Shown here: in pieces, positions 1-21,330 of the stretch | Position numbering within the stretch: the stretch's first letter is position 1 | How the letters are laid out: each line of letters opens with the position of its first letter | IMG/VR virus record: IMGVR_UViG_3300017771_002251 | Span: 1 to 55,340 of that record | Reading direction: 5' to 3' (one strand) | From: a virus | Length of the DNA stretch: 55,340 bases | Translations under genes and position numbers: made by a program | The notes under the pieces: model-generated | What the model saw: the letters and a program-made list of their open reading frames with translations, nothing else | Database searches by the model: none | Told to the model about the DNA's origin: nothing

Positions 1-841
1 CGTTTACGATATCACCCTTTACAGTTAGGTTTGCTGGAACAGCATCAGTACCTAATGTAATTGCCTTCTCGGCATTCAATACTTCTTTCAGTGTGGTGAC
101 ACCTTGTACATCTAGGGTATCTCTCAAGAGAGTTGCACCACCTACATCTAATTCACCACCAACAGAGAAGTCTGTACTAACTACCGAGTAGTTAAACTTT
201 GCGTAGACAGAGAAGGATACACCATCAGTGTCGGTAAATACGACTACTGATTGACCACCACGAATTTTTAAGTCGGTTCTTTGGTAAGAAGTTCTGGGAA
301 CAATGTCTCTATTGTATTCCAGATATTGATCAGAAGTGATTGCAGTGCCAGCACCTTCATCACTGATTGCTACTCTAAATCTAGCAGGTGATGGTCCTTG
401 GTTTGCGACAAACAAACTAACCAGTGCCTCTTCATCAGTAGGAACTGTATAGATTACTGTGTTTTCTCTTGGTGTTGGTAGAGATGCTGCAACAAATCCA
501 GTGGGAGTTGGGTCTTCTTGAATCTGACCGTGGAGAACAAATGATGTGCTCTCACAACTTGACCATACAATTAGAGATTGGTCACCACCATAATAGATGG
601 TGTCACTTTCATAACTTTGACCTTCACCAATCTCATAATCAAATAAGATATAGTTTTCTGGGTTGAAGTCTAACAGACCTCCGCTAGAAACACCGATTCT
701 AACCCGTACTGGATAAGGATCTTTATGTGTAATCGAAATTTTACCCTCTACAACTCTTCCCGTGGGGGCAGTGTGTAGTGCGACTCTAGTTTTTTTGGGT
801 GAAACGAGAGACGCTAAATATCCAAAAGTGGGATTAGACAT
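1..841 (-). CDS. Tail fibre-like virion protein, N-terminal part (runs off the window)
   Basis: An uninterrupted minus-strand frame of 280 codons opens with ATG at 841-839 and continues past base 1, so the C-terminus is missing. It begins MSNPTFGYLASLVSPKKTR. Two similar beta-rich modules follow, each with a 'TAPTGR/TVPTDE' strand and a segment ending near 'VVVFTDTDGVSFSVYAKF'. The second module resembles the whole 106-residue protein at 10305-10625. The last visible part, with 'GGATLLRDTLDVQGVTTLKE', has the short alternating strands typical of trimeric phage fibre shafts. A perfect late promoter lies 34 bases upstream. It is probably a fibre or fibre-attachment protein; its receptor cannot be inferred. 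Confidence 0.75.
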   Translation of the reverse strand, partial: MSNPTFGYLASLVSPKKTRVALHTAPTGRVVEGKISITHKDPYPVRVRIGVSSGGLLDFNPENYILFDYEIGEGQSYESDTIYYGGDQSLIVWSSCESTSFVLHGQIQEDPTPTGFVAASLPTPRENTVIYTVPTDEEALVSLFVANQGPSPARFRVAISDEGAGTAITSDQYLEYNRDIVPRTSYQRTDLKIRGGQSVVVFTDTDGVSFSVYAKFNYSVVSTDFSVGGELDVGGATLLRDTLDVQGVTTLKEVLNAEKAITLGTDAVPANLTVKGDIVN

Positions 842-897: not shown

Positions 898-1722
898 ATG
901 CCTAAACTGATTACTGGATGCAATGGATTCATTGGAAAGAAGTTTGCAGAAAAACACCAACCATTCATTGGAGTAGAAGATTATAACGCTTGGGCAATGC
1001 TTGAGAACTTTAATGGGTGGAAAGATATTGACGAGATCATTCACATGGGTGCAATCTCTTCTACTACATGTACAGATGAGGAAAGACTTACATGTTTCAA
1101 CGTAGAGTATTCCATTGCATTGTTTGAGAAAGCACTTGAGTATGGTATCCCTGTAAAGTATGCATCATCTGCTTCTGTGTATGGCAACAGGAACGATGGT
1201 GGATTAGATCCTCTCAATCTATATGCAAAGTCAAAGGTTGCTGTAGACCTGTGGGTGTCTGAAAATATTGATAGGTTTGACCTGATTCAAGGATTTAGAT
1301 TCTTCAATGTGTATGGTCTGGGAGAAGATCACAAAGGTAATCAACGTAGTCCCATAAGCAAGTTTGCAGAGCAAGCAGTATCGAATGGTGTGATTGAAAT
1401 CTTTGAAGGATCTGAAAGAATGTTCAGAGACTTTGTGTGGGTAGATGATGTTGTAGACATCGTAGATAACAATGGTGTAGAGTCTGGTATCTACGATCTA
1501 GGATCTGGACGTGTGTACTCTTTTAGAGAAGTAGCAGAAATCATTGCACAAAAATTCGGGGCGGAGATCAAAGAGATCCCCTTCCCCGAACATCTGAAAG
1601 ACAAGTATCAATACAATACTCTTTCTAATTTTAAGTGGGAGAACAAAGATTTTATCTCAATTGAGACCTACATCAGTCACCTTTCTTTACTCGATAAGAG
1701 TCAGAGTCAAAGTGTGTCGTAG
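898..1722 (+). CDS. hldD: ADP-L-glycero-D-manno-heptose 6-epimerase-like NAD(P) sugar epimerase
   Basis: This 274-residue extended SDR is close to HldD (RfaD), which converts ADP-D-glycero-manno-heptose to the L-glycero form. Visible are the Rossmann loop GCNGFIG (7-13), 'MGAISSTTC' (50-58), matching the HldD 'HEGACSSTT' region, 'YASSASVYG' (88-96), the YxxxK pair Y109/K113, 'GFRFFNVYG', and 'FEGSERMFRDFVWVDDV', which follows HldD almost residue for residue. It is slightly shorter than bacterial HldD (about 310). I chose ATG 898 over GTG 865 because it places the first beta strand directly after the start. It is the only plus-strand gene and its end overlaps the end of the cupin gene by about 50 bases. 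The family call is firm; the exact nucleotide sugar is inferred from neighbours. Confidence 0.85.
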   Translation: MPKLITGCNGFIGKKFAEKHQPFIGVEDYNAWAMLENFNGWKDIDEIIHMGAISSTTCTDEERLTCFNVEYSIALFEKALEYGIPVKYASSASVYGNRNDGGLDPLNLYAKSKVAVDLWVSENIDRFDLIQGFRFFNVYGLGEDHKGNQRSPISKFAEQAVSNGVIEIFEGSERMFRDFVWVDDVVDIVDNNGVESGIYDLGSGRVYSFREVAEIIAQKFGAEIKEIPFPEHLKDKYQYNTLSNFKWENKDFISIETYISHLSLLDKSQSQSVS

Positions 1723-2026
1723 AGAACTCATACATCTCTGTATCTTCTAACGCCTTCATTTGATGGCGCAATAACCTGGGGACTTCAAACTTGTCTCCAG
1801 GTTTTAATATTACTGTGTCTGCATCTATGAAGTCATCATGATATCCATAGACCAATTGCAATTTGCCTGAATGAATATAGAATGTTTCTTCTTTTAACTC
1901 ATGGTAATGCCAGGAACATTTCTTTCCTTTTTCAAAGAACAAAAGTTTTCCACAGTATTTTTCATTGTTGACGATCCACTTCTCGTGACCCCAACCTTTA
2001 GGGACGAACTTAATTGAAGAACTCAT
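1673..2026 (-). CDS. Single-domain cupin, sugar-phosphate isomerase-like
   Basis: A protein of about 117 residues beginning MSSSIKFVPKGWGHEKW. The N-terminal 'KGWGHEKWIVNNEKYCGKLL' pattern resembles the cupin tail of type II phosphomannose isomerases (PWG..E.L....Y..K.L). Metal-site residues are visible as 'WHYH', 'EETFY' and 'RHQM'. I took ATG 2026 rather than the upstream ATG at 2050 because AAGGAG lies at a good distance before it. It overlaps the phosphatase gene by 17 bases and the epimerase gene tail to tail. It may isomerise or epimerise a sugar, or be a non-catalytic cupin; it is listed with the heptose cassette because of position. Confidence 0.7.
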   Translation of the reverse strand: MSSSIKFVPKGWGHEKWIVNNEKYCGKLLFFEKGKKCSWHYHELKEETFYIHSGKLQLVYGYHDDFIDADTVILKPGDKFEVPRLLRHQMKALEDTEMYEFSTTHFDSDSYRVKKGD

Positions 2027-2333
2027 GGTCGCTGACTCCTTTGTCGTCAATGTATATATCTCCAGAAGGTTTACCTAGGTATAAAGCGTCGAACATGCAC
2101 CCCCATTCACATAATTGTTTCTTGGTGAACTCATAGAATTCGTCATGTGCTTTCTGACGATCATTATTATAGCGTCCCATACCTCTAGCTGTGAGGTAGA
2201 TTACTTCATTTCCTTCAATGTATAGTTGATTGATTCTACGGATACGATCTTCCCTGGGTCTGGCATGTGTGTACACAGCATCACCTTCACCAGGGAAACA
2301 GATAGTGCCGTCGATATCAACAACGTATTTCAT
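2010..2333 (-). CDS. Small HAD-superfamily phosphatase in the sugar cassette
   Basis: This 107-residue protein starts directly with HAD motif I (MKYVVDIDGTIC; nucleophile Asp in DIDGT). Motif II Thr is in 'YLTARG', and a late 'GKPSGDIYIDDKG' supplies the Lys and the acidic pair of motifs III/IV. Short HAD proteins with this 'TARG...GKP..D..IDDK' pattern are common in bacterial capsule and LPS clusters. In the heptose pathway a phosphatase (GmhB) removes the 7-phosphate from heptose 1,7-bisphosphate, and this enzyme could fill that step, though it is not a close GmhB by motif. The start overlaps the kinase gene by 17 bases. Confidence 0.72.
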   Translation of the reverse strand: MKYVVDIDGTICFPGEGDAVYTHARPREDRIRRINQLYIEGNEVIYLTARGMGRYNNDRQKAHDEFYEFTKKQLCEWGCMFDALYLGKPSGDIYIDDKGVSDHEFFN

Positions 2334-3102
2334 TTATATCATCTTTAGATAGAACATATGTGCCGAAGTGTGTAACGGCAATTGCTGCTGCTTTGTTTGC
2401 GTAAGGAATAGCACGATCAATCGTACCAAGCAACAGATAGAAATGTACCAGAGCTGCTAGGAACGTATCACCAGCACCTGCTACATCAAACACAGGGACA
2501 TTGATACCAGGAAAAGATCTTCCGTTCCAAGTACAACCTTGCGACCCTTTGGTTACAATTAGATTAGCATAATCTCCTTCTAACTTTTGTGCTTCACGAT
2601 CATTGATCTTAATGAAACACTGTTTTGGTAACCTGGTCTTCTTGCTATCAATAAAGACAGGACCATTGAACCACTTTACTAATTCTTCTATTTTCTCTTC
2701 GGATAGAAATCCTTTGTTGTAGTCAGAGATGACCATAACATCAAACTTTTCTGTTGGTAGTTCCCATCCAAAATCTTCTGCTTCGTCGTTCTCATCCAAC
2801 CGCATGATCTGCTGGTTGGACTTGGAGTCTACGTATCGAGTCTTTGTGATTTGTGATTCATGAGTCATCATGTAAACTTCATCGCCAAAGGACATGATAT
2901 TCTCCCTGACGTTATGTGCCATACCTTTGGCAGTCTCTACTCTATCGTATACCATGACTGGTACAGGTGCCTCTGGACTGATCCTGGTGACTGTACCATA
3001 CACATATTTGTCAGTGCAGGTGTCACCGATAAGGAGTACCTTGAATTGTTTGGGTTGTGGAGTAGTCTCCTTGTCGATCAAAAAACCGAACTGATTTTGC
3101 AT
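2317..3102 (-). CDS. hldE1: D-glycero-beta-D-manno-heptose-7-phosphate kinase-like (HldE N-terminal domain type)
   Basis: A 261-residue PfkB/ribokinase-family protein matching the kinase half of HldE (RfaE). It carries 'KVLLIGDTCTDKYVYG' (21-36), 'TRISPEAPVPV' (39-49), identical in order to the HldE 'SRISPEAPVPVV' sugar-binding segment, 'ISDYNKG' (125-131) and the ATP/anion-hole motif 'DVAGAGDTF' (206-214) with catalytic Asp212. It is somewhat shorter than the bacterial kinase domain (about 315). HldE1 phosphorylates heptose 7-phosphate at C1. The start overlaps the nucleotidyltransferase gene by 80 bases, unusually long, but no later ATG would keep the first beta strand. Confidence 0.82.
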   Translation of the reverse strand: MQNQFGFLIDKETTPQPKQFKVLLIGDTCTDKYVYGTVTRISPEAPVPVMVYDRVETAKGMAHNVRENIMSFGDEVYMMTHESQITKTRYVDSKSNQQIMRLDENDEAEDFGWELPTEKFDVMVISDYNKGFLSEEKIEELVKWFNGPVFIDSKKTRLPKQCFIKINDREAQKLEGDYANLIVTKGSQGCTWNGRSFPGINVPVFDVAGAGDTFLAALVHFYLLLGTIDRAIPYANKAAAIAVTHFGTYVLSKDDINEIRC

Positions 3103-3421
3103 AGCGTGAACCTACTACTTCTTTTCCTTTCCAGTCGGAACCGACTACCATTGTATCAGGTTTGATCGATTCCAGCAACTCCTCTAGCTCTTGTTTGGTG
3201 TCGAATGTGTGGACTACATCAACATACCTGATTGCTGACAGCATCAGTCTTCTATCGGATTGCGAAAAAATAGGTCTCTCGGGACCTTTCATTTCTGCTA
3301 CTTTCCTGTCGGAGTCGATAGCAACAATGAGATAGTCTCCGAAAGACCTAGCGTAATTAAGAAGTTCGATGTGCCCTGGATGGAGCACATCAAAACATCC
3401 ATTTACAAACGAGATTTTCAT
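3023..3421 (-). CDS. hldE2: Heptose-1-phosphate nucleotidyltransferase-like (HldE C-terminal domain type)
   Basis: This 132-residue protein has the nucleotidyltransferase signature 'VNGCFDVLHPGH' (6-17, HxGH) at its N-terminus, 'AIDSDRKVAEMKGPERP', 'VVGSDWKG', and a 'GDYSTTQTIQ' end matching the 'CSTTNIIKKI' end of HldE. HldE2 makes ADP-heptose from heptose 1-phosphate and ATP. I used ATG 3421 rather than an upstream in-frame start at 3469 because it gives ATGA overlap with the carbamoyltransferase stop and places the catalytic strand at the N-terminus. The kinase partner is a separate downstream gene, the reverse of the kinase-first order in bacterial HldE fusions. Confidence 0.84.
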   Translation of the reverse strand: MKISFVNGCFDVLHPGHIELLNYARSFGDYLIVAIDSDRKVAEMKGPERPIFSQSDRRLMLSAIRYVDVVHTFDTKQELEELLESIKPDTMVVGSDWKGKEVVGSRYAKSVRFFDRQGDYSTTQTIQGTPYR

Positions 3422-5100
3422 TCGTTGGGAACATGAACAAGTTTCTGGATCTCTGGTAGATACATCCATTCAATATCACTTCTCTTCAAAGTGAGGACTG
3501 CATCTTCGATTGTCTCGACCAACGGGTCTCCACCAAGATTAAAAGAAGTGTTAAACAAAATAGGGACACCAGCAATCTTATCGAATGCATCAATGAGTTT
3601 GTAGTAGTGTTCATTTTGCTCTTGGGTTACAGTTTGAATACGACAAGTATTGTCCACATGAATAACCGAAGGAATCTTCTCTTCCACTCCGTCATGACAC
3701 TTGACTGCATACATCATGTGAGGTGTCTCATCACGACCTGCTAGATCAAACCAGTCATTAACCTTTTCTTTCTTGATAGAACATGCGAATGGACGGAACC
3801 ATTCACGATGCTTAACTGCATTGACGTGATCTTTACCATCTTTGATAGTAGGATCAAACAGAATAGATCTGTTACCCAATGCACGAGGACCACCTTCAGA
3901 ACGACCCTGATAAATGGTTACGATATTACCTTCACGAATCAGTTTAGCAACATCATCATATGAAGTGTCGGTAGTTTCTAGACCTTCTAGATCTGCCTCG
4001 TAACCAGTGGGATCATATTGAGGACCATAGTAAACAGATTCCTGCTTACTGGGTTTCTCGGTTTCCATTACTTTATTGTAGATGTACTTTGCACCACCAA
4101 TAGAAGTACCACCGTCATGCGAAATAGGTTCGCAGTAGATATTGAGGTCAGGGAACTCCTTCCAATACTTGTAGTTTGCAACGCAGTTGAGACCATATCC
4201 GCCACATACTACAATGTTCTTTTCACCAGTCATTTCGTGTGCTTTGCGAATTAACTGAACCATACGGTCGGAAGTTTGTTCCTGAATCTTGTAAGCAAGA
4301 TCCTTTTGAATATCTGTATACTCACCCTCTACATGGTTGTCATAATCCTTCTTGAGAATATCAAAACGACCAATGTTAATTTGAGCGGCATTAGGATACG
4401 TAGGAATAATAACGTCCCTGTTACCCCAACCATCTCTGAAGAAGTCTGGCAAATCTTCGTTAGGTTTGCCGTATGGAGCAAGACCCATAAGTTTGCCAGC
4501 TTCAATTGCTGGGAATCCACAGTATTGAGTTACTGCTTCATACATCTTGGTGTGACCAGGGTATTCTGTAATGAAGATACCTTTCTCTGGTTCATTGCAA
4601 CCAATAGCTGCTTTTGATCCAATGTGTTTGAACACTGTATCAAATTCACCAGGATAAGATGCATCAAAGATAGTTTCAAACTCGTAGGAGACATCTCCTA
4701 CTTGTTCAATCTGTAGGAAACTACCTGCACCATCAGCAATGACACAAGCAGCAGTTTCAAAACCAGAGTTATAGAAACCACATGCAGCATGCATCTCGTG
4801 GTGATTAACGTCGATGAAGTGAGTTTCAAACTCAAACTTCTTCCTGGCAAGTTTCCTTACCCAACCTTGGTATGCATCCTCACCAGACCAATCCAATACA
4901 GGACCGTGACGGTGAGTATGACAAATAACCAGGTGGTCAATGTGATCAACATATTCAAACGCTTTTGCGATTCCCATTAGAGGGGATCCGTCATACTTAA
5001 ATCTAGTGAGGCGTTCTTCTTCTAGATAAAATACTACTTTACCATCAACCAGCAAAGTAGTGCTCCCGTTATGACCACGGGCAATTGCAAGAATGTTCAT
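3418..5100 (-). CDS. NodU/CmcH-type O-carbamoyltransferase
   Basis: A full-length 560-residue member of the carbamoyltransferase family (NodU, CmcH, TobZ), which moves carbamoyl from carbamoyl phosphate to a hydroxyl, often on a sugar. The N-terminal Kae1/ASKHA-like domain starts 'NILAIARGHNGSTTLLVDG' and has a metal-site His cluster 'VNHHEMHA' (98-105), 'GKLMGLAPYG' (202-211) and 'VVCGGYGLN'. The C-terminal domain has 'EGGPRALGNRS' (402-412) and 'REWFRPFA' (432-439). A GAGGTAAT ribosome-binding site precedes the ATG. It lies 11 bases after the glycosyltransferase gene and is coupled by ATGA to the nucleotidyltransferase gene. A heptose acceptor is inferred from context. Confidence 0.9.
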   Translation of the reverse strand: MNILAIARGHNGSTTLLVDGKVVFYLEEERLTRFKYDGSPLMGIAKAFEYVDHIDHLVICHTHRHGPVLDWSGEDAYQGWVRKLARKKFEFETHFIDVNHHEMHAACGFYNSGFETAACVIADGAGSFLQIEQVGDVSYEFETIFDASYPGEFDTVFKHIGSKAAIGCNEPEKGIFITEYPGHTKMYEAVTQYCGFPAIEAGKLMGLAPYGKPNEDLPDFFRDGWGNRDVIIPTYPNAAQINIGRFDILKKDYDNHVEGEYTDIQKDLAYKIQEQTSDRMVQLIRKAHEMTGEKNIVVCGGYGLNCVANYKYWKEFPDLNIYCEPISHDGGTSIGGAKYIYNKVMETEKPSKQESVYYGPQYDPTGYEADLEGLETTDTSYDDVAKLIREGNIVTIYQGRSEGGPRALGNRSILFDPTIKDGKDHVNAVKHREWFRPFACSIKKEKVNDWFDLAGRDETPHMMYAVKCHDGVEEKIPSVIHVDNTCRIQTVTQEQNEHYYKLIDAFDKIAGVPILFNTSFNLGGDPLVETIEDAVLTLKRSDIEWMYLPEIQKLVHVPNE

Positions 5101-5111
5101 TATTACCTCAA

Positions 5112-6257
5112 TTATTTTTTAACAGAAAACCCTTTACTGGGAATCTCGATTGCTGGAATCTTTACGTCTGTGCCGCCAGGAGCAGCTTGTTGCATTGGGA
5201 GTTGGAAATTGTTTCCATTGCTACTGGGTGCTGCTTCAGGCATGTTACAACCGTCTGCTGTAGGACCACCAAATTCTGGAGGAAGAACAACATCAGTAGC
5301 GGGTTTGCGATAGTATTTGTTCATGAATTTGTCAACAGACTTCATGATAACATCCTCGATCTTATCATTCATCGCCATGATACCATCATTAGCTCTCGCT
5401 GCTTCTTCATCAGGAGTAATGCGAATAGGATCGTAGATACGTTGTCCTTCACCCATATCCAGGATGTCAAACTTCTCTTCATTTGGATAAGAAACATTCT
5501 CTCCAAAAGTAGATCCCATGACAGCAACAACTGGAGTTCCTACTGCATGTGCAATATGCTGTCCTACAGAGTCACATCCTAGGAACAAGTCTGCTTCCTC
5601 AATGATACCTGCCCAACCTCTCATGGGGACTCCATTGCCAGCAGGGAATGAAATAGTATCGCGAAGTCCTTCTTTCTCGAAGTCGAATGCAAACTCTGAC
5701 ATTAGAATGACAGAATACTTTTTCTGCAGACGCTTGATGATAGAAACAACGTTTCTGTGCTCAAAACTTCTACCAGAAGGATCAGTGATGATACTACCCG
5801 CTTGCTGTACTCCTCTACCATATGGTTGGAATACTACGGTTTTTGGTTTCTTGGTCTTTTGTCTTACCTCTGCAACAATAAACTTTCCGTTAATTGCTTC
5901 TTCTCTGGAAAGTTTTAGAGTTGGTTTGGGTAGATCTCTAACACCTTTATTGTTGATAGCAATATCGAATGCTTGAGAGAGATTGCATTTCTGATTGTAA
6001 TACTCCCACACCCTGTAAGGTTCTGGGGAAATCGTGTCAGTATGAATCAGTTTGTCTCTAAAGAGATTCTTATGCCAGTTATCATACACCTTGCCATAAA
6101 GTGTAGGATGTCCTTTGAAGAAGTCTGTACCTCCTTCACATACGATTAGGAACTCCTCGTCGGGATGATCCTCTTGATATTTCTCAAGGGCAGGAATTGA
6201 ACAAAGCACACGTCCAGCACCACCATTGATAAAGAATGATTTAGGTCTCATAATCAA
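5112..6257 (-). CDS. GT9-family (heptosyltransferase-like) glycosyltransferase with a C-terminal extension
   Basis: A 381-residue GT-B fold protein. The N-terminal domain opens 'SFFINGGAGRVLCSIPALE' (7-25), like the 'GDVLLTTPALRAL' opening of heptosyltransferases. The donor-binding half carries 'ADLFLGCDSVGQHIAHAVG' (222-240) and 'PVVAVMGST', the GT9 hallmark (D.GP.H.A.A.G.P..A.FG.T) with Gly-Pro changed to Val-Gly. After about residue 320 comes a Pro-rich low-complexity tail of about 60 residues ending 'IPSKGFSVKK', unusual for GT9. ATGs at 6257 and 6251 are both possible; neither has a strong Shine-Dalgarno. It is first in the sugar operon. The acceptor is unknown: host surface glycan or virion protein. 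Confidence 0.78.
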   Translation of the reverse strand: MIMRPKSFFINGGAGRVLCSIPALEKYQEDHPDEEFLIVCEGGTDFFKGHPTLYGKVYDNWHKNLFRDKLIHTDTISPEPYRVWEYYNQKCNLSQAFDIAINNKGVRDLPKPTLKLSREEAINGKFIVAEVRQKTKKPKTVVFQPYGRGVQQAGSIITDPSGRSFEHRNVVSIIKRLQKKYSVILMSEFAFDFEKEGLRDTISFPAGNGVPMRGWAGIIEEADLFLGCDSVGQHIAHAVGTPVVAVMGSTFGENVSYPNEEKFDILDMGEGQRIYDPIRITPDEEAARANDGIMAMNDKIEDVIMKSVDKFMNKYYRKPATDVVLPPEFGGPTADGCNMPEAAPSSNGNNFQLPMQQAAPGGTDVKIPAIEIPSKGFSVKK

Positions 6258-6292: not shown

Positions 6293-6316
6293 AAAAAAGG
6301 GGCGGTTCCCCGCCCC
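6293..6316 (-). terminator. Intrinsic terminator
   Basis: On the minus strand a 7-bp GC-only stem (6299-6305 with 6310-6316) with a 4-base loop is followed by six T (A-run 6293-6298 on the plus strand). It ends the transcript carrying the adhesin genes and 6339-7064, and separates them from the sugar operon. Confidence 0.85.
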
Positions 6317-6338: not shown

Positions 6339-7064
6339 TCATTCAGATAGAAGACCTTCCTCGTCTACGTTATAGTCATAGTTCTCTAGGAGACCAAGTG
6401 TAGGATCTTCAGGGAAAGGAATCATGAATGCGTCAACGCCATCATACTTGGTGTATACATTTTCCATCGTAGTGATGAATGTTTCGATAGCAGTGACTTG
6501 ACTTGCGATCAGATTAGCTCTCTGTTCTGCAAGGAAATCTTGTGCGCCTTTTAGGATACCGTCGCGAGCAGCTTTGTGCTGTTCCATGGTGATCCAAACT
6601 TCCATGAAGGGGAAGGGTTCTTTCCACTCACCAGCAGAAAAATCATACTCGATTGCATCTACATTGTAGGTGTGGTCGGGTAGTTGGGGATCGGGACGCT
6701 CGTAATATGCTTCGGTTTCGCCTGCCAACTTGTACTCCTTCTGGGGATAACCAGCATCTTTGCCAGTATCGGTGTGGAAGAAGACAGATGCAATGATAGC
6801 ATCAGTGTTGGAGGTTTTAGGGCGGAGAAGAATTGCTCTCTCGTCTAGACCTGCTCTGATTTGTGCATTCTCTGCATCTTCAGTTTCATTTCTGACAGGC
6901 ATGCAGGATTGCGCTGGTAGTAGTGTACCAGTCGCTGCATCAACGAATACATATAAGAATTCTGGACCATTGTAGGTCGCAGTAGCAGTTAGTCCAAGAT
7001 CACTAGTCTGCTTCGTGTACTCGTCAGGTAGGTTATAAGTGTATTCCTTTGAAATTTTCGCCAT
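6339..7064 (-). CDS. Phage protein of unknown function after the adhesin genes, possible fibre-assembly chaperone
   Basis: A 241-residue soluble-looking protein starting MAKISKEYTYNLPDEYTK, with no signal peptide or membrane segment. The N-terminal two thirds is beta-rich; around 137-155 is 'VDAIEYDFSAGEWKEPFPF', followed by a charged helical stretch 'QHKAARDGILKGAQDFLAEQR'. The end is acidic. It has its own exact late promoter 42 bases upstream and is followed by a terminator. Phage fibre genes are often followed by a tail-fibre assembly chaperone, and its place and helical C-terminus fit that idea, but I do not recognise the family. It could instead be a minor virion protein. Confidence 0.6.
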   Translation of the reverse strand: MAKISKEYTYNLPDEYTKQTSDLGLTATATYNGPEFLYVFVDAATGTLLPAQSCMPVRNETEDAENAQIRAGLDERAILLRPKTSNTDAIIASVFFHTDTGKDAGYPQKEYKLAGETEAYYERPDPQLPDHTYNVDAIEYDFSAGEWKEPFPFMEVWITMEQHKAARDGILKGAQDFLAEQRANLIASQVTAIETFITTMENVYTKYDGVDAFMIPFPEDPTLGLLENYDYNVDEEGLLSE

Positions 7065-7105
7065 GGTAGTAATCTCTGTGTATAGTCCGTGAGTATTGCT
7101 TTAGA

Positions 7106-7113
7106 TATTTATA
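7106..7113 (-). promoter_or_regulatory. T4-type late promoter TATAAATA
   Basis: Exact TATAAATA on the minus strand, 42 bases upstream of the start at 7064 and just beyond the stop of the gene at 7123-8022. Confidence 0.75.
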
Positions 7114-7122
7114 TAAAATTGA

Positions 7123-8022
7123 TCAGTAGCTGCATTCAGATTGCTTGTAGGAAATCCGAATAAGACCGTGATATCCATGCTGACCATAGCAGCATCCACC
7201 ATCAGTCCAAGCAGAAGCACCGCCAATGCCAGGAACATAGTTTCCTTCTGAATATGAACCGCCCCACTGTAGTTGTGCAGTAGCCCACATTGTGCTACAA
7301 TATCCACATCCTCTGTGCTCACACTGGGTCATGGGCAACCAACCGCCCTTACCGTTAACTAGACCAGCAGGGTAGGGGATGTATTGCTTGTTGTGGCAGT
7401 GGTTGCCTTGGCAGAACACGTTACCAGCACCAGCGTTGCCATAAGCACCACCATCAGCACCGTAGTATGGAGCACAAGGTCCATTACAGCATACACCACA
7501 CTTCGTCATCCAGAAGCAGCAGCACATGTAGCAGCAGGAGCATCCTCCATCACCACCATTAGCACAGAAGTTAGAAAGACCAAAACCTGTGATGTAGGTG
7601 TCTCCACCTTTTTGACCACAAGTCAAGTTATTCCTTGCTCTACCACCCTGTCCAATATCAATAGAATAAGAACAACCAGGAACAACATTATTTCCAGATA
7701 GTTTCTTATATGCATAAGCACCAGAACCACCAGGGATGCCTCTACCACAGCAGCGACTATCGCCACCAGATCCACCAGCACCCCAGATCTCAAAGATGAC
7801 CTCGGTGGTGTTTGCAGGAACTTTCCAATCAGGATACTGGAAGTATCCATAGTTAGAAGTCCAGTTATCACACGTTGCACCGCAGTGTGCTGCGATGTAC
7901 ATCACCGTGTAATCCTTTGAAGGATATGGGGGTACTTTTGTTGTAGTGTCCGCTTCAGCTAATGCCTGAATTTGTGCGGTAGTGACGACTCCTAATAAGT
8001 CTCGTAAATTGGTATTTGGCAT
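7123..8022 (-). CDS. Cys- and Gly-rich adhesin-like protein, copy 3 of a tandem trio
   Basis: A 299-residue protein with about 25 Cys by manual count and abundant Gly. It begins 'MPNTNLRDLLG', sharing the LRxLL start of its two upstream neighbours. At about 90 comes 'FEIWGAGGSGGDSRCCGRG', the Gly-rich phage fibre-tip motif, then 'GGDTYITGFGLSNFCANGG', a Cys cluster 'CSCCYMCCC', and a C-terminal 'GCCYGQHGYHGLIRISY'. The Gly-rich core resembles receptor-binding tips of phage fibres; the Cys clusters are not typical of them. The family suggests a surface-exposed adhesin; the target is unknown. Confidence 0.7.
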   Translation of the reverse strand: MPNTNLRDLLGVVTTAQIQALAEADTTTKVPPYPSKDYTVMYIAAHCGATCDNWTSNYGYFQYPDWKVPANTTEVIFEIWGAGGSGGDSRCCGRGIPGGSGAYAYKKLSGNNVVPGCSYSIDIGQGGRARNNLTCGQKGGDTYITGFGLSNFCANGGDGGCSCCYMCCCFWMTKCGVCCNGPCAPYYGADGGAYGNAGAGNVFCQGNHCHNKQYIPYPAGLVNGKGGWLPMTQCEHRGCGYCSTMWATAQLQWGGSYSEGNYVPGIGGASAWTDGGCCYGQHGYHGLIRISYKQSECSY

Positions 8023-8048
8023 CTTCTATGGCTCTTCTTAATTGATAT

Positions 8049-8981
8049 TTAGTTACAGAAGTGGAAAGCGCAGTCATTATTGACGCCTAACCAGCAGGAA
8101 CAGTATGTGATCTTAATAAATCCACCTTGACCGCGCCATCCATAGCAGCAGCTATTAGAGCAAGAAGTTGCGGAAGGAGCACCAACGCCAGGGATACCAG
8201 GACCGCCATTACAGTTTGTGCTATATGCCCAAGGAGTAGTTCCATTACAGTAGGTACGTTCCTGGTTACAAGCATTACCTCTATTATTAGACATAATGTG
8301 ACCACCTTTGTGGTCAATGAGTCTACCTGGGTATGCCATTCCAATTTTTGCCCAGCAAGTATCGGAGTTATTATAGGTTCTGAAGAATCCAGGACCACCA
8401 GGAATCATTTCGTCTCCACCATAGGAGTTGGACTTATCTGTTCCAGGTGTCCAACCACCAGCACCAGAGAAGTAAACTCTATCTTCACATCTGAATTCAT
8501 TGCCCCAGAATGCATAACAGCAAGTCTTACCAGGAAGACCACCTTCTGCACAAAGGTTACTTAAGTTGCAACCAGTGATGTAAGACTTACAACCTTGGAT
8601 ACCACAGCAGCACTGTGAGCAACATGTAGGCGATGCTACGACCATTGCGTAACACCATCCACCTTGGATCTGTGGATACTGTAGAGTCTTTCTGACATAT
8701 GCACCAGCACCACCAGGGATACCCTGTTGACAGCAGCATGCGCCACCGCCAGAACCGCCACCACCCCAGAGTTCAAAAGTGATCTGGGTAGTACCACAAG
8801 GAACACACCAATGATTGATGCAATAGTCGTGGTATGACTGCTCACAGTTTCCTCTGTTACAGTAAGGATGGAAGTTGAATACCATCCCGTCTCTGACACG
8901 GGTATAGCTACCATATACCGCTGCGGTGTCAGTAATTGTGGAAGCAAATTCCTTCCCTAGTAGTCCTCGTAAATTTGCCAT
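8049..8981 (-). CDS. Cys- and Gly-rich adhesin-like protein, copy 2 of a tandem trio
   Basis: A 310-residue paralogue of its neighbours, with about 31 Cys. Order: 'MANLRGLLGKEF' start; 'YCNRGNCEQSYHDYCINHWC'; the core 'FELWGGGGSGGGACCCQQGI'; 'CCSQCCCGIQGCKSYITGC'; 'LSNLCAEGG'; and an end 'SCCYGWRGQGGFIKITYCSC'. The core, 'SYITGC.LSNLCA.GG' and 'CCYG..G..G.I.I.Y' elements line up with the other two copies, so the trio arose by duplication. No Shine-Dalgarno is obvious at this start. Function is inferred as a fibre tip or receptor-binding protein. Confidence 0.7.
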   Translation of the reverse strand: MANLRGLLGKEFASTITDTAAVYGSYTRVRDGMVFNFHPYCNRGNCEQSYHDYCINHWCVPCGTTQITFELWGGGGSGGGACCCQQGIPGGAGAYVRKTLQYPQIQGGWCYAMVVASPTCCSQCCCGIQGCKSYITGCNLSNLCAEGGLPGKTCCYAFWGNEFRCEDRVYFSGAGGWTPGTDKSNSYGGDEMIPGGPGFFRTYNNSDTCWAKIGMAYPGRLIDHKGGHIMSNNRGNACNQERTYCNGTTPWAYSTNCNGGPGIPGVGAPSATSCSNSCCYGWRGQGGFIKITYCSCWLGVNNDCAFHFCN

Positions 8982-8987
8982 CTTTAA

Positions 8988-9923
8988 TTAAGTCTTACAG
9001 TACCATGTGATTTTAACAAGACCTGCAGCACCTTCGGAACCACAGCAGCAACCTCTACCAAATACATCAGCAGAGAATCCACCCATGCCAGGAGGACCAT
9101 TACGGAAACAGTCACTGGAAAGACCAGCGTTGTTACCTTCCATCCACATTGTTGCTTCTCTACCACATGTTGCCATAGAGCAACGTCTGGTAGTGTGGAG
9201 TGTGCCGAACTTACCATCTTGGTAAGGGGCAGTAGGCACATAGTTTTTCATCATACACCAGTTGCCGCAATCGGAGCAACTGTTCTGGTTATAGGAGTTT
9301 TGAGCACCCCAGTATTCCTTACCGAACTCACAGCAGTATTCGCGACATTCGCGATCTGCAGACCAGCAGTTAGTCTGCCATCTGCACCATGCTTGACTGA
9401 CCATCCAGTTCTCTCTGGATCTACAACCACCAGAGTAGTTAGCAGCACCGAAGCAACAGGAGCGACCGTGGCATCCACCACAAGCACAGAAGTTGTCTAG
9501 ACCAGGACCGTTGACCCAGGACTTACAACCGTCGTAACCACTGTTAGATGGAGATCTACAGGTGACCGAGGCAGCACAGAAGCAATACTTGCAACCATCT
9601 AGTTCGGTGCCACCAATGCTAGATTGTGCAGCGCAAACTGTGGTCTTATTGTACTGACCAGAATGTCCATTCCATCCGTTCATACAGCAGCAAGCACCAG
9701 CGCCGCCGCCGCCTCCACCCCAGATTTCAATCTCTAGTTTACAAACGCAGCAAACAGGGACGCACCAGCAAAGTTCTTGCCAGTTGTAACTGTGGTTGTT
9801 ATTATATTCCCAACAGTGACCCCCACGAAACCAAATTTGGTGACTGTTTTGGGGACCGTAATATGTAGTTACTGGTACTGCACTGTCGTCTGCAACATCC
9901 AGTAAGTCTCTTAAACTCGACAT
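8988..9923 (-). CDS. Cys- and Gly-rich adhesin-like protein, copy 1 of a tandem trio
   Basis: A 311-residue protein, the most Cys-rich of the three (about 36). It starts 'MSSLRDLLDVADDSA', preceded by GGAGG. 'LCWCVPVCCVCKLEIEIW' leads into 'GGGGGGAGACCCMNGWNG', then 'GYDGCKSWVNGPGLDNFCACGG', more Cys pairs, and a C-terminal 'GCCCGSEGAAGLVKITWYC'. The frame is open throughout and its paralogues keep the same landmarks, so this is a real gene and not a low-complexity artefact. The Cys could form disulfides after lysis or bind metal; the sequence does not decide. Confidence 0.7.
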   Translation of the reverse strand: MSSLRDLLDVADDSAVPVTTYYGPQNSHQIWFRGGHCWEYNNNHSYNWQELCWCVPVCCVCKLEIEIWGGGGGGAGACCCMNGWNGHSGQYNKTTVCAAQSSIGGTELDGCKYCFCAASVTCRSPSNSGYDGCKSWVNGPGLDNFCACGGCHGRSCCFGAANYSGGCRSRENWMVSQAWCRWQTNCWSADRECREYCCEFGKEYWGAQNSYNQNSCSDCGNWCMMKNYVPTAPYQDGKFGTLHTTRRCSMATCGREATMWMEGNNAGLSSDCFRNGPPGMGGFSADVFGRGCCCGSEGAAGLVKITWYCKT

Positions 9924-9946
9924 GACTTATATCCTCCCTAGGTATA

Positions 9947-10276
9947 TTAGTTAGAAAGGATCGACCAACCGTAAGAAGATCCACTATAGATTAACTCAAG
10001 TGATGCATTTTTAATATCGAAGTCTAGGTCTTCTGCAAGGTTAGCGATTTTATTGCCATTTCTAGCAAGAATTGCTTTCGTTGTACCACACTGACCTGCT
10101 GCATCAATTAGATTGATACGATCGCCCACTGCGGGGTTTGCGGGTAGTGTTAGTGTAATTTCCGATCCAGCGGTAGTGTCAATCATCAGGATTTCTCCCG
10201 ACAGAACACTGTGGTTTGCTGTGATACCTAGAGTAGTTCTTTGCTCTAGGGGTGGTGCTGATAGATTGCGTCCCAT
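9947..10276 (-). CDS. Small beta-rich virion protein
   Basis: A 109-residue protein beginning 'MGRNLSAPPLEQRTTLGITA'. It has alternating beta segments 'EITLTLPANPAVGDRINLID' and a C-terminal 'LELIYSGSSYGWSILS'. The same 'LTLTLP...GDTLEFID...VQLIWDGNYWRVI' pattern closes the protein at 14364-14822, so both share a small fibre-type domain. A late promoter variant sits 23 bases upstream. It is likely a decoration or fibre accessory protein; no enzymatic motif is seen. Confidence 0.65.
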   Translation of the reverse strand: MGRNLSAPPLEQRTTLGITANHSVLSGEILMIDTTAGSEITLTLPANPAVGDRINLIDAAGQCGTTKAILARNGNKIANLAEDLDFDIKNASLELIYSGSSYGWSILSN

Positions 10277-10298
10277 TGTTCTTAAAACTCCTTTGTAC

Positions 10299-10306
10299 TA
10301 TTTATC
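10299..10306 (-). promoter_or_regulatory. Late promoter variant GATAAATA
   Basis: The minus strand reads GATAAATA, 23 bases upstream of the start at 10276, overlapping the stop of the preceding gene. It differs from the T4 consensus only at the first base. Confidence 0.45.
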
Positions 10307-10625
10307 AAGCCTCTTCTTCAACGCCATACGCAGCTACGCTGACGTTTGCCGTATCGGAAAGCACTACAATGTTTTTAGTTGCCTGAAGCGCAATACCAGT
10401 TCTCTCCAGAATACCGTACCCTGCAATTTCTGCATTGTACTCAATGTATTCTGCGCCAGTAGGTGTGCTGGTAGCAGCGAGAGCAACACGAACGCTAACA
10501 GGCGTAGAGTTCGTGTTGACGATGTTAAAGTTAACGTATGCAACAGTTGCTGCAGGGACGGTATATACTGTGGTTAGGGTGTTAGCTGATAGGGAAGCTT
10601 GTGTCCCCAGGATGCCAGAAGCCAT
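10305..10625 (-). CDS. Small virion protein with the fibre-associated beta module
   Basis: A 106-residue protein, 'MASGILGTQASLSANTLTTV', with an AAGGAG ribosome-binding site. Segments 'TVYTVPAATVAYVNFNIVNT', 'EYIEYNAEIAGYGILERTGI' and 'NIVVLSDTANVSVAAYG' align by eye with the second module of the partial fibre at 1-841 ('VIYTVPTDEEA', 'QYLEYNRDIVPRTSYQRTDL', 'SVVVFTDTDGVSFSVYA'). It is thus a stand-alone copy of a domain that also occurs inside a fibre. Behind an exact late promoter. Probably a small capsid/tail decoration or fibre connector. Confidence 0.7.
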   Translation of the reverse strand: MASGILGTQASLSANTLTTVYTVPAATVAYVNFNIVNTNSTPVSVRVALAATSTPTGAEYIEYNAEIAGYGILERTGIALQATKNIVVLSDTANVSVAAYGVEEEA

Positions 10626-10669
10626 GTTTATTACTCCTTAAATTTGCCGAGATTTCGTAATTTTACTTG

Positions 10670-10677
10670 TATTTATA
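10670..10677 (-). promoter_or_regulatory. T4-type late promoter TATAAATA
   Basis: Exact TATAAATA on the minus strand, 45 bases upstream of the start at 10625. Confidence 0.75.
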
Positions 10678-10686
10678 AAGAGGGGA

Positions 10687-13600
10687 TCACATTGCTCCCG
10701 CCCAGAAAGTGAAGCCTTTCGTCTTCGTCTTTGTGTCAACGTAAGTCTTGACTGCCTTCTGCGTAGGAACTTTAGCGTTGCTATTTGCAGACATGGTTAC
10801 ATCCGCCGAGAACTCGTTAATAGATTCACCGATTTGAGCACCGATGGAACCAAGTCTCAAGGATGATAGACCAGACAAGTCGAAGGAAGATGCGTTCAAG
10901 GTTGTGCTACCAGTTGCCTGGTTAACTTTGAAGTAACGACCAACGGTGAAGTTACCATCTTGGTCCGTGGATACGAAGAACACACGACCAGGGAAGTTTT
11001 CAGTAACCTCATTACCTGGTGCAGGTGCCGATAGAGGCTGACCTGGCCAGTTAGTCTGGGTCTTGTTACCAGTACCGATATCCAGGAAGTCATGACCAGT
11101 TAGTCTGACTTGTGAATACAGGTATCTGATTCTTGTAGCTTGACGATCGTAAGTTGCACTAGGCTTCTCTTCTGCAAGAACAACCAGTACAGTACCAGTT
11201 GTAATTGTTGCGGATTGGGAAACCTGCATGAACTCACTGTCAATCTTGATGTAGTCAGAGGATAGAGTACCCGTAGACGTTTCAACAAGAATAACTGTGT
11301 CAGATGCTGTTAGGTCTCTAGCGGTAGTTGTCTCGGTAGGAACCTTGATCTGAAGTGCTCTGACTGTAACGCCAGAGTTATGTGCAGCACCAGTGGTGCC
11401 TTCTACTCCTCTGATAACTTCAACAGAAGTTGCAGTTGGGAACGAAACGACTTCCATCATCTCGTCTTCGATGATGACATAACCACCAGTGTTAATGCCA
11501 GTAATCGAAGCAACTTGGATGACAGTGCCAACCGCGTCACTAACAGGAGCAGATAGAGATGTTGCAGTACCAGTTTGGTATCTAGCAACAGTGCTCAAAC
11601 CATCATGAGTTGTAGCAGCAGAACCAAGAAGTCCTCTGGTTACAGTCAGTTCTCCACGTCCAGTAGGACCAGCGTAAGAAGAGTTAGCAACAACATAAGT
11701 GAATAGATCAGAACCGAGTCCACCAGGACCAGTGATGTATTCAATAGAACCACCTGGGTCAGGAGCAGCGGTTAGACCACCGAGAACAAAGGTGAAACCT
11801 GACATACCCTTTTGAGCGTCAGAGTTGTTGACCAGAGTTGCAGTTGCTGTAGAATTGCTACCAGTGACAACTTCGTTCTGTGCAAAGTTACCTTTGAGAG
11901 GACGGATAAGAATCTTATCTGCCGAAGGTTGGAAACTAGTAATTTCACCAACTGCACCAGAAGTACCACCCGTAACATTCTCGGCACTTTCAAAAGTTGC
12001 GCCTGTAGATAGGGTAAGGGGATCGTAGTTGAGTTCGATACCGTCGATGAATCCATCGAGAGTAGACTCATTTTCGTTGAAACCAGAGGAAACAATAGCG
12101 TAAGTACCCCAGGAGGAGTTACCTGCCAAGGATCTGATTCTACCGCCTCTAGTAGAGGTGTAAGAGATGTGGCAATAGTAGGTGAAGCAGGATACGATTT
12201 CAGCAGCGCCGTTGTTCGTAATCCAGAAACCTACACCACCGCTTTCGTGGATGTTAGTCCAGGAGTCAAAAACGATAGACTTGTTAGAAGGAGTTCCAGT
12301 TCCGTCATACTTATCGTGAACACCACCGTCAACAATTGCACCAATACCAGTCTGGGAGAATGCAGAACACTGCGAAACGTAAGGAGACTTGGAGATTGGG
12401 GAGTTGGGGTTCAGTCTAACGAATACACCATCTGGAGTAGAGGTGTTCATATCCTTTGGATCGGATACAGAAGGAACGAATCCTGCCATACCGTCCATAA
12501 CGAGATCCTTCAGCATCGATCTGTTAGACAGATAGAAGAGAGTTGCGTTCTCGTTATTGAGAGTGTTCACGGTGTTAAGTGCGATATTAGCACCACCATT
12601 GTCGAAAGTATCGGAGGTAGTCCAGACGCCGCCAGTAAGAGGCATAACGTCGATGCTAGCACCACCGTCTCTGACATCCATGATCTGTGCGGTCTTATCG
12701 CCAGCACCATTTGTGCATGTCTCGCCAATGACTCTCTCTGCAGCAAGAGGAATCGTTGCAAGTGTTAGTCTTTGGATGTTAGAAGGTTGTCCAACGTTTG
12801 GTTTAACGGTGGACGTTCTCATGTTGTCACCAATGATCGAAACGTTCTCGGGAACGATGATTGGTAGAGTTTCGTTATAGATACCTGCCTTAACATAAAT
12901 GGTAGCAGGACCAGTAACAAGACTTACTGCATGAGAGAGTGAAGCAAATGCTTTGCTGATGTTAGAACCGTCGTTTAGGTCGTTACCATTTGTGGTAACA
13001 TAGTAAACAGGGTCGGTAACATTGTTGTTTTCCCATGCGGGGAATCCGTTAGAATCAACGGATAGAACTTGACCAGTTGTTCCAATAGGTAGTCTTGCAG
13101 CACCTGAACCAGAGATGTAAAGAACATCACCAGCATCGGTTAGTACGTTAGACTGTGCGCCTTGGGTCAGGGAGTTCCAGTAGTCTCCGTTAACATCTAG
13201 TTCAGGTTCGTTGCCAGTTGTTTCGGCAACACAGATGTAGGAGTTACTTGCTCTGGTGACAGCATCACCAGGTTGGTAAGTTGTGCTTGTATCCCAAGTG
13301 CCTCTCCAGGTGAAACCACCAACAACGAAGTCCCAATCAGAAGGATTAGATCCAGGTGTGGAGTTTGTGTTGGTTGTTTTAGCAACGTAGGAGTTACCAC
13401 CAAGGAGTACAACGTCACCAGGCTTGTATTCGGTGCTGTTGCTCCATGTACCAACTACCTTGAAACCAGTAGTTAGGATCTCCCAGTCACTACCAATAGT
13501 GCTATTGGGTTGTGAACCAGTAGAGATTGTTTGAGCAACATAAGAGTAACCACCGAAAGTTACAATGTCACCTGGTTGGTATTCAGTATTGGTGTCCCAC

Positions 13601-13959
13601 GTATCTTCAAACTTCAGTCCGTTAATATACGAGACGAAGTTTGCAGCAGCGAAAGATCCGCTGGAAGTGTGGGGGTTGACAACCCTATACTGATCATTGC
13701 CATACTTGACAATATCATTAGTTCTATAGAAGGTTGCATCTGCCCATTCACCTCTGTGGTAAATGCCTTCGGTATGGAGTTGCCATCTGGCACCATCCGA
13801 TCCATACCATTGCGCCTCATTCGATGCTGACGTGTGGTTTGAAATACAAACAAAAGTGTTTGCACCAAACTTAACGATGTCATCGATGACGTATGCAGTG
13901 GCAACTGTCCAGTCGCCCCTCCAATTAAACTTAAGTCTGCCTAATCTGAAATCTGCCAT
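10687..13959 (-). CDS. Large tail fibre/spike-like protein with carbohydrate-binding-like repeats and a beta-helix segment
   Basis: A 1090-residue protein. Residues about 10-265 hold five or six repeats of 'WRGDW...T.Y..GDIV.FGGNSYV', a pattern like small carbohydrate-binding (CBM5/12-type) modules. About 315-390 reads 'VYYVTTNGNDLNDGSNISKA', 'ATIYVKAGIYNETLPI' and 'NVSIIGDNM', the start of a right-handed beta-helix as in pectate-lyase-like tailspikes. Around 830-870 are 'RGVEGTTGAAHNSGVTV' turns, shared with the giant gp7-position protein. The C-terminus has a 'FDLSGLSSLRLGSIGAQIG' coil. It likely binds or degrades a host glycan; no catalytic residues are identified. Confidence 0.75.
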   Translation of the reverse strand: MADFRLGRLKFNWRGDWTVATAYVIDDIVKFGANTFVCISNHTSASNEAQWYGSDGARWQLHTEGIYHRGEWADATFYRTNDIVKYGNDQYRVVNPHTSSGSFAAANFVSYINGLKFEDTWDTNTEYQPGDIVTFGGYSYVAQTISTGSQPNSTIGSDWEILTTGFKVVGTWSNSTEYKPGDVVLLGGNSYVAKTTNTNSTPGSNPSDWDFVVGGFTWRGTWDTSTTYQPGDAVTRASNSYICVAETTGNEPELDVNGDYWNSLTQGAQSNVLTDAGDVLYISGSGAARLPIGTTGQVLSVDSNGFPAWENNNVTDPVYYVTTNGNDLNDGSNISKAFASLSHAVSLVTGPATIYVKAGIYNETLPIIVPENVSIIGDNMRTSTVKPNVGQPSNIQRLTLATIPLAAERVIGETCTNGAGDKTAQIMDVRDGGASIDVMPLTGGVWTTSDTFDNGGANIALNTVNTLNNENATLFYLSNRSMLKDLVMDGMAGFVPSVSDPKDMNTSTPDGVFVRLNPNSPISKSPYVSQCSAFSQTGIGAIVDGGVHDKYDGTGTPSNKSIVFDSWTNIHESGGVGFWITNNGAAEIVSCFTYYCHISYTSTRGGRIRSLAGNSSWGTYAIVSSGFNENESTLDGFIDGIELNYDPLTLSTGATFESAENVTGGTSGAVGEITSFQPSADKILIRPLKGNFAQNEVVTGSNSTATATLVNNSDAQKGMSGFTFVLGGLTAAPDPGGSIEYITGPGGLGSDLFTYVVANSSYAGPTGRGELTVTRGLLGSAATTHDGLSTVARYQTGTATSLSAPVSDAVGTVIQVASITGINTGGYVIIEDEMMEVVSFPTATSVEVIRGVEGTTGAAHNSGVTVRALQIKVPTETTTARDLTASDTVILVETSTGTLSSDYIKIDSEFMQVSQSATITTGTVLVVLAEEKPSATYDRQATRIRYLYSQVRLTGHDFLDIGTGNKTQTNWPGQPLSAPAPGNEVTENFPGRVFFVSTDQDGNFTVGRYFKVNQATGSTTLNASSFDLSGLSSLRLGSIGAQIGESINEFSADVTMSANSNAKVPTQKAVKTYVDTKTKTKGFTFWAGAM

Positions 13960-13974
13960 GTTTATGCTGCCTTA

Positions 13975-14822: not shown

Positions 14823-14847
14823 TAAAATTAATTTAGGATACCAATGT

Positions 14848-14855
14848 TATTTATA
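14848..14855 (-). promoter_or_regulatory. T4-type late promoter TATAAATA
   Basis: Exact TATAAATA on the minus strand, 26 bases upstream of the start at 14822. It lies between the repeat-protein gene and the fibre operon. Confidence 0.75.
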
Positions 14856-14858
14856 CTA

Positions 14859-21251: not shown

Positions 21252-21267
21252 ATACTACAGCCAAGTT

Positions 21268-21304: not shown

Positions 21305-21330
21305 ATGATGTAAAACTCAATTTCAGAATA

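Follow-up and report, generated by a model that had tools for sequence, protein, structure and literature searches.

The viral DNA of 55,340 nucleotides that was analyzed here (the window) is a fragment, and its virus shares ~99.9% identity with Synechococcus phage S-CAM1. It carries a seven-gene cassette that, with a probability of about one half, encodes a GmhA-independent, self-contained ADP-heptose pathway joined to a tail-adhesin modification unit. Sequence analysis supports this reading at the levels of protein family, fold, active-site conservation, integrity of the module and linkage to an adhesin locus. In the proposed pathway, for which we infer all substrates, the acceptor and the carbamoylation site, a cupin would convert host sedoheptulose 7-phosphate (S7P) to D-glycero-D-manno-heptose 7-phosphate, a PfkB kinase would phosphorylate C1, a HAD phosphatase would remove the C7 phosphate, a nucleotidyltransferase would form ADP-heptose, and an epimerase would invert C6. 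A GT9-like enzyme would then transfer the heptose, most likely onto the adjacently encoded tail-fibre/adhesin proteins, and a carbamoyltransferase would cap a hydroxyl of the attached sugar. S7P would be drawn from the Calvin cycle and the pentose phosphate pathway, both of which are manipulated by cyanophages; it is also a substrate of transaldolase, which S-CAM1 encodes as well.

The preliminary description had placed the cassette at 898-6257. All seven open reading frames were found there, their families were matched, and tail genes flank them. The gene order and the reading frames are also seen in S-CAM3, P-SSM2, P-SSM5, Sf-FS3, S-SSM7 and many viral contigs; thus, the arrangement is not a product of chance. 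Among kinase loci flanked by 3 kb on either side, the cupin gene was present in 59/59 and the HAD gene was missing from three of the 59; the nucleotidyltransferase gene accompanied the kinase in 75/76 loci and the HAD gene in 69/76, all these being counts of non-independent events from related contigs of unequal lengths. The nucleotidyltransferase, kinase, HAD and cupin genes constitute a genuine module. Cupin loci were also found in MAGs, but their taxa were mutually inconsistent and some of them carried the whole phage cassette, so they were taken as mis-binned phage DNA.

Activation of heptose, as put forward in the preliminary description, is well supported by the conserved active sites of three predicted enzymes and by the linkage of the cupin to two unrelated heptose-7-phosphate kinases. 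The PfkB-type kinase resembles HldE domain I (2317..3102, minus strand; PDB 4e84, HldA), the nucleotidyltransferase is of the HldE domain II type (3023..3421, minus strand), and the HldD-type ADP-heptose 6-epimerase has 274 aa with a short N-terminus (898..1722, plus strand), with 1eq2 (HldD) as its nearest PDB entry. Their top NCBIfam models were all heptose models: TIGR02198 for the kinase (139.4 bits, E 1.3e-40), TIGR02199 for the nucleotidyltransferase (122.8 bits, E 9.6e-36) and TIGR02197 for the epimerase (188.5 bits, E 1.6e-55). These scores lie below the curated equivalog cut-offs (345, 181.5 and 274.6 bits, respectively), and the HldE and HldD models outscored those for ribokinase, GCT and GalE by ~50-150 bits. 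The kinase, with 261 aa, matched the 315-position HldE domain I model in three separate stretches only. The HldE motifs RISPEAPVP, NQQxxRLD, SDYxKG and GAGD were found in the phage kinases, and in the alignment to E. coli HldE (n=126) the residues R118, D120, S150-Y152, K154 and G155 were kept in 126/126 and D264 in 125/126. NGxFD and HxGH of the nucleotidyltransferase were kept in 119/119 relatives, and S116, Y140, K144 and K178 of HldD each in 101/101 epimerase relatives.

The HAD gene (2010..2333, minus strand) is a candidate substitute for GmhB. EcbF/BcbF was the sole family model matched, and weakly (TIGR01689, 33.6 bits, 3e-8), PDB 1xpj was also matched, and GmhB identity was not obtained. 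The generic HAD motifs are intact, with D6, D8, T48, K88, D96 and D97 invariant (n=117). The database name "phosphoheptose isomerase" for this gene is a mislabel; the protein is a HAD phosphatase.

The preliminary description listed the cupin and missed both the absence of GmhA and the probable role of the cupin. From its sequence and gene context, we predict that the cupin (1673..2026, minus strand) replaces GmhA as the S7P isomerase. Its start was set at 2026 because relatives carry stops just upstream. By profile and by fold, its closest relatives are D-lyxose/D-mannose ketol-isomerases: the profile matched PDB 2y0o (E 5e-5) and 7nzo (6.5e-5), and the structure model (pLDDT 93.3) gave 7nzp as the best Foldseek match. 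The metal ligands H40, H42, E47 and H88 (3-His-1-Glu) are invariant (n=43). CapF and oxalate decarboxylase also match the fold well. The aldoses and ketoses used by the ketol-isomerase relatives carry no phosphate, and substrates of D-lyxose/D-mannose isomerases share the C2-C4 configuration of the S7P/heptose-7-phosphate pair. Databases carry the cupin under the misleading name "cysteine dioxygenase".

GmhA or SIS_2 matches were detected in 0/20 records, six of them complete phages, and in 0/50 kinase contigs. With one positive among six further phages, 11/12 complete phage genomes with the cupin were without GmhA. The exception is SynMITS9220M01, where a GmhA-like gene stands in a separate operon; cupin and GmhA thus do not strictly exclude each other. 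In phage Bellamy, the operon reads HddA (NF049969, E 7e-83)-cupin-HddC-like, and no GmhA was found in 205 kb. Since the cupin here stands beside the unrelated HddA-type kinase, it appears to track heptose 7-phosphate and not one kinase fold. As main readings, an FdtA-type NDP-sugar isomerase and a phosphomannose isomerase were rejected, because the S-CAM1-type cassette has neither a 4,6-dehydratase nor a mannose-pathway gene.

The GT9-like protein (5112..6251, minus strand; disordered tail 328-379) is predicted by modelling to have an ADP-heptose-transferase fold. Its Pfam GT9 match was barely at the cut-off (22.0 vs 22 bits), and phmmer and profile searches against PDB sequences gave only chance-level matches, so that a fold search was needed. 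A structure-based search, suggested earlier for all seven proteins, was made by Foldseek for this protein and the cupin. The AlphaFold model (pLDDT 81.8, pTM 0.80) had WaaF, WaaC, TibC and the GT9 structure 3tov as its top 30 matches, and it shares the WaaC/WaaF GT-B fold (1psw, E 5e-10, probability 1.00, TM 0.54/0.60); plant NDH-PSI complex chains also match. The donor loop D-[ST]-x-x-x-H is present as CDSVGQH, aligned to DTGLSH of WaaC, with D227, S228 and H232 invariant. However, the catalytic Asp of the N-terminal GxxGD motif (WaaC D13, TibC D110) is Arg14 in 54/54 relatives, and GGxGR is likewise found in the homologues of Vibrio phages. Thus, the heptosyltransferase-like label holds for fold and donor loop and not for the catalytic Asp, and transfer of heptose is uncertain.

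The carbamoyltransferase is of the NodU/CmcH/TobZ type (3418..5100, minus strand). Both Pfam domains were well above their cut-offs (Carbam_trans_N 73.9/24 and Carbam_trans_C 196.1/27 bits), TobZ (3ven) was matched at E 3.7e-52, and the motifs HHxxH, DG, GPRALG and NTSFN are conserved in the alignment to TobZ. Its records are misnamed as pyrimidine synthesis; the actual type is NodU. The carbamoyltransferase proposed at first is therefore present with its motifs, but heptose as its specific target is weakened, because at roughly every second GT9-like locus the pair of GT9-like and carbamoyltransferase genes is unaccompanied by heptose genes. In most of these pair-only loci, an SGNH-like gene lies between the two; it had no match among cultured phages, Pfam or PHROGs.

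The GT9-like and carbamoyltransferase genes belong to the tail-adhesin locus. Next to them on the minus strand lies a tail-locus protein of unknown function (phrog_9740, 6339..7064), a constant neighbour present at 71/78 GT9-like loci. It is followed by three Gly/Cys-rich fibre/adhesin-like genes (7123..9923, minus strand, as 7123-8022, 8049-8981 and 8988-9923; Gly_rich_2 E 4e-10, phrog_4205; 14-18% Gly, 8-12% Cys) and by a tail fibre that contains multiple CBM_5_12 carbohydrate-binding modules (10687..13959, minus strand), all candidate targets. On the other flank is a tail fibre gene (2..841, minus strand; phrog_11338, E 2e-163). Tail genes also flank the GT9-like homologue in Vibrio podophages. 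A terminator-like hairpin (6299..6316, minus strand; seven G-C pairs and TTTTTT) lies between the adhesin genes and the cassette, and one of differing sequence was at the equivalent position in 33/58 loci; thus, the adhesin genes and the GT9-like gene may not be co-transcribed. Conversely, when full-flank loci were found via the neighbouring tail gene, the GT9-like and carbamoyltransferase genes were present in 48/48 and heptose genes in only 33. Host remodelling and virion decoration had been listed as equals; this context favours virion decoration.

We considered whether ADP-heptose is made but attached to an envelope glycan of the host (LPS or capsule), for a superinfection block or surface remodelling. 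WaaC and WaaF, the archetypal GT9 enzymes, are among the top fold matches of the GT9-like model; S-T4, S-SM2, SynMITS9220M01, P-TIM68 and Sf-CH8 carry the module amid glycosyltransferases that resemble surface-polysaccharide clusters, and O-antigen modification by phages is well established. Nevertheless, the S-CAM1-type pair is tied to the adhesin locus even where heptose genes are missing, and no flippase/acyltransferase gene was recognised within the cassette. We regard an envelope acceptor as unlikely, though well within reason.

Two further explanations touch the chemistry itself. The sugar phosphate activated by the module may be a different one (of a hexose, or of a deoxy or branched sugar), the heptose names reflecting family drift. 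The sub-cut-off scores of the three models and the unphosphorylated substrates of the cupin's relatives would suit this, as would the genes for a class II aldolase, or for alcohol dehydrogenase and PDH/transketolase-like proteins, that some related clusters contain in addition. However, NQQxxRxD and SDYxKG of HldE and K178 of HldD are almost invariant, the heptose models lead over those for ribokinase, GCT and GalE, and the HddA heptose kinase is also accompanied by the cupin, which makes a different sugar improbable. It is less probable again that the tail locus uses the GT9-like protein without catalysis, in a lectin-like or assembly role, and that the heptose genes serve something else. The invariant Arg, the independence of the pair from sugar-activation genes and the matching NDH-PSI fold point that way, but polar residues of the protein are invariant at many positions, its donor loop is intact, and its constant partner, the carbamoyltransferase, keeps its catalytic motifs.

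The host is a marine Synechococcus, as the preliminary description had allowed for; heptose-free LPS is stated in a review for WH8102 and CC9311, and WH7803, the host of S-CAM1, is not named there (PMC4515613). psbA was found on 8/38 contigs with the activation genes versus 0/38 with only the GT9-like and carbamoyltransferase genes, a skew consistent with phages requiring activation genes when their hosts do not produce heptose. A fuller proposal is that cyanophages evolved a GmhA-free ADP-heptose route (cupin isomerase and non-GmhB phosphatase) from Calvin-cycle and pentose-phosphate S7P, and that their own tail adhesins thereby receive heptose, a sugar not made by the host, and O-carbamoylation. 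This is tentative, and somewhat more probably wrong than right. If true, a non-orthologous S7P isomerase would be identified, carbamoylated heptose on tail fibres would be a virion modification that could affect host recognition, and misleading names of the HAD, cupin and NodU-type carbamoyltransferase in surveys of phage metabolic genes would be corrected. It would also assign a function to gene clusters of P-SSM2, S-SSM7 and S-CAM1 for which the 2010 study (PMC3037559) settled on none. We found no literature joining cyanophages, heptose and a carbamoyltransferase, and none tying a cupin to S7P and heptose.

The co-occurrence of several cassette genes is already known, as are the heptose names in the records. 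Sullivan et al. (2010, PMC3037559) listed seven co-occurring cyanophage "LPS genes" (T4-GC 260, 265, 266, 304, 305, 307 and 308), of which 304, 305, 307 and 308 are the nucleotidyltransferase, kinase, cupin and epimerase of the cassette; the GT9-like (302), carbamoyltransferase (303) and HAD (306) genes are not in that list. They gave no pathway and left "stuffer DNA" possible, a reading that the near-invariant active sites rule out. SynMITS9220M01, for which heptose-related LPS genes were reported (PMC7378029), is likewise a cyanophage with heptose genes and a cupin; it differs in that its HddA kinases are of the GHMP type and are joined by an HddC-like transferase and by a GmhA-like isomerase, and neither a PfkB kinase nor a GT9-like protein was found in it. 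With the bacterial ADP-L-glycero-beta-D-manno-heptose pathway (GmhA, HldE, GmhB and HldD), the phage shares the diagnostic residues of kinase, nucleotidyltransferase and epimerase. In contrast to that pathway, HldE is split into two genes, a cupin stands instead of GmhA and an EcbF/BcbF-like HAD instead of GmhB, and the models score below equivalog cut-offs. The autotransporter heptosyltransferases TibC and AAH share the GT-B/GT9-type fold with the phage protein, but the latter begins at the first Rossmann strand without an N-terminal beta-barrel, has Arg for the catalytic Asp, and lacks the four-Cys iron-finger set, only C38 and C226 being invariant and C89 nearly so. TibC nonetheless provides a precedent for a heptosylated adhesin protein (PMC4358343).

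Over its first 8 kb, the window, a 55,340-base IMG/VR virus record, matches Synechococcus phage S-CAM1 at about 99.9% identity; this T4-like cyanophage had been isolated on WH7803. The seven genes of the cassette (898-6257), for several of which heptose names already exist in public records, were found where the preliminary description had placed them. Its placement between tail genes was also borne out, with a tail-fibre gene (2-841) on one side and a series of tail genes spanning 6339-14822 on the other. This series includes a 1090-aa tail fibre (10687-13959) with several carbohydrate-binding modules of the CBM_5_12 family (five matched stretches, E 1e-20) and a 152-aa tail protein (14364-14822) with Mtd_N, the major tropism determinant N-terminal domain (E 1e-14). 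A tail-region protein at 24044-26299 carries a subtilase-like Peptidase_S8 domain. Over most of its length, the 2130-aa ORF at 14828-21251 overlaps long open frames of 1077, 253, 244, 228 and 218 aa that are read in a second frame of that strand; the 2130-aa protein gave no match in the Pfam search. S-CAM1 possesses a second NodU-type carbamoyltransferase gene (NC_020837.1, 42650-44122), distant from the cassette.

The top NCBIfam matches of the kinase, nucleotidyltransferase and epimerase are heptose models, with scores that are all under the curated equivalog cut-offs. The phage proteins were aligned to E. coli HldE and HldD. R118, D120 and SDYxKG of HldE were kept in all 126 kinases and Asp264 of GAGD in 125 of them; NGxFD and HxGH of the HldE C-domain were kept in 119/119 nucleotidyltransferases, and S116, Y140 and K178 of HldD in 101/101 epimerases. 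All motif positions of the HAD protein, which resembles the EcbF/BcbF capsule phosphatases and not GmhB, were kept (117/117). The carbamoyltransferase shows the two domains of TobZ together with its motifs. At the sequence level, these alignments and the locus comparisons described below demonstrate the families, the active sites, the integrity of the module and its linkage to the adhesin locus. The cassette is real and conserved, and apparently functional.

A full ADP-heptose route requires a sedoheptulose-7-phosphate (S7P) isomerase, usually GmhA. The "phosphoheptose isomerase" label on the HAD gene in records is wrong, the family of the gene being HAD. No GmhA or SIS_2 was detected in 20 phage records (six complete), no GmhA match in five of six further phages, and no SIS_2 match in 50 kinase-bearing contigs; control genomes gave a positive signal in these searches. 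A cupin profile built from 43 relatives matched D-lyxose and D-mannose ketol-isomerases best, and Foldseek ranked the same enzymes first for the structure model (pLDDT 93.3). The substrates of these isomerases share the C2-C4 configuration of D-glycero-D-manno-heptose. The metal ligands are invariant among the relatives, and the cupin was present in all 59 kinase-seeded loci flanked by 3 kb or more on each side. In Bellamy and SynMITS9220M01, the cupin gene lies between a GHMP-type HddA heptose-7-phosphate kinase (E 7e-83 and 3e-85, respectively), which is unrelated to the cassette kinase, and an HddC-like transferase. Thus, the cupin accompanies two unrelated kinase types that have heptose 7-phosphate in common, which supports it as the isomerase candidate. 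GmhA is absent from Bellamy; since SynMITS9220M01 has GmhA in a second heptose operon, the mutual exclusion is not absolute. We therefore predict, with gene context as the strongest argument, that the cupin is a candidate S7P isomerase substituting for GmhA.

The glycosyltransferase (GT) and carbamoyltransferase genes behave differently from the activation genes. Among 78 GT-seeded loci, the carbamoyltransferase was found in 76 and the 241-aa tail-locus protein (6339-7064, minus strand, in the window) in 71, and 41 loci carried the pair without any heptose gene. In most pair-only loci, the two genes are separated by an SGNH-hydrolase-like ORF of about 308 aa (locus L169, 9905-10828, and 31 other loci), which had no match in Pfam, PHROG or cultured phages. 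Conversely, when full-flank loci seeded with the 241-aa protein were counted, both GT and carbamoyltransferase were present in 48/48, and activation genes also in 33. Vibrio podophages have a GT homologue that is flanked by tail genes and not adjoined by activation genes. Thus, the pair is part of the adhesin locus, with the heptose genes as an addition to it. The psbA gene occurred in 8/38 contigs with activation genes versus 0/38 pair-only contigs, contigs of unequal length, so that an association of the activation genes with cyanobacterial hosts is only suggestive. Within a reference genome set, phage cassette contigs were binned in archaeal, Patescibacteria, Planctomycete and other MAGs. 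The preliminary description had also noted that marine Synechococcus LPS has been reported to lack heptose; a review (PMC4515613) states this for WH8102 and CC9311; WH7803, the S-CAM1 host, is not among the strains named there.

In the pathway that we infer, the cupin would convert S7P to heptose 7-phosphate, the kinase would form the 1,7-bisphosphate, the HAD protein heptose 1-phosphate, the nucleotidyltransferase ADP-heptose and the epimerase ADP-L,D-heptose; the GT would then transfer the heptose onto a tail protein, and the carbamoyltransferase would act on the attached sugar. S-CAM1 has a transaldolase gene and thus touches S7P metabolism. We give this whole chain a probability of about 0.5. 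Heptose activation by itself is quite likely, and the virion is the somewhat favored target; that heptose is the sugar carbamoylated is an even call.

Several observations bear on the later steps. The 379-aa GT9-like protein (5112-6251, minus strand) gave a good model (pLDDT 81.8, pTM 0.80), whose top 30 PDB fold matches consist of WaaF, WaaC, TibC and the GT9 structure 3tov, and TibC heptosylates an adhesin protein (PMC4358343). The GT9 catalytic Asp (D13 in WaaC, D110 in TibC) is aligned to an Arg, invariant in 54/54 relatives and shared by the Vibrio phage homologues. Judged from this alignment, either another residue would act as the base, or the protein would be no canonical transferase. 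The following observations count against the inferred chain. A terminator-like hairpin (6316-6299) separates the GT gene from the adhesin genes, and 33/58 loci have a hairpin, of varying sequence, in the equivalent position; thus, GT and adhesins may be transcribed separately. Across L104-L115, the stems of such hairpins differ in sequence at a constant position before the GT gene. In other cyanophages, the activation module occurs in clusters resembling surface-polysaccharide synthesis, and is thus not bound to a single target. The cassettes of S-SSM7 (15046-22036 of its locus) and Sf-FS3 (9033-13491) contain extra 2OG-Fe(II) oxygenases and a second carbamoyltransferase, and that of S-SSM7 also a tryptophan halogenase; the end product may therefore be more elaborate. 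It is conceivable that the embedded oxygenases hydroxylate tail proteins ahead of glycosylation.

A set of seven "LPS genes" that occur together in P-SSM2, S-SM2 and S-SSM7 was described by Sullivan et al. 2010 (PMC3037559), who could not say if they work; T4-GC 304, 305, 307 and 308 of that list are the cassette nucleotidyltransferase, kinase, cupin and epimerase. The heptose genes of SynMITS9220M01 are mentioned in PMC7378029. In two papers (PMC9146016, PMC10436341), a role in pyrimidine synthesis is attributed to a cyanophage carbamoyltransferase, an assignment unsupported by the NodU/TobZ family membership of the present group. Our literature search turned up no publication that suggests an isomerase role for the cupin or names tail adhesins as the target. 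The most interesting claims, that the cupin replaces GmhA and that tail adhesins are heptosylated, are predictions. The cassette is partly known already, and what is new is an ADP-heptose pathway variant joined to a tail-adhesin modification unit.
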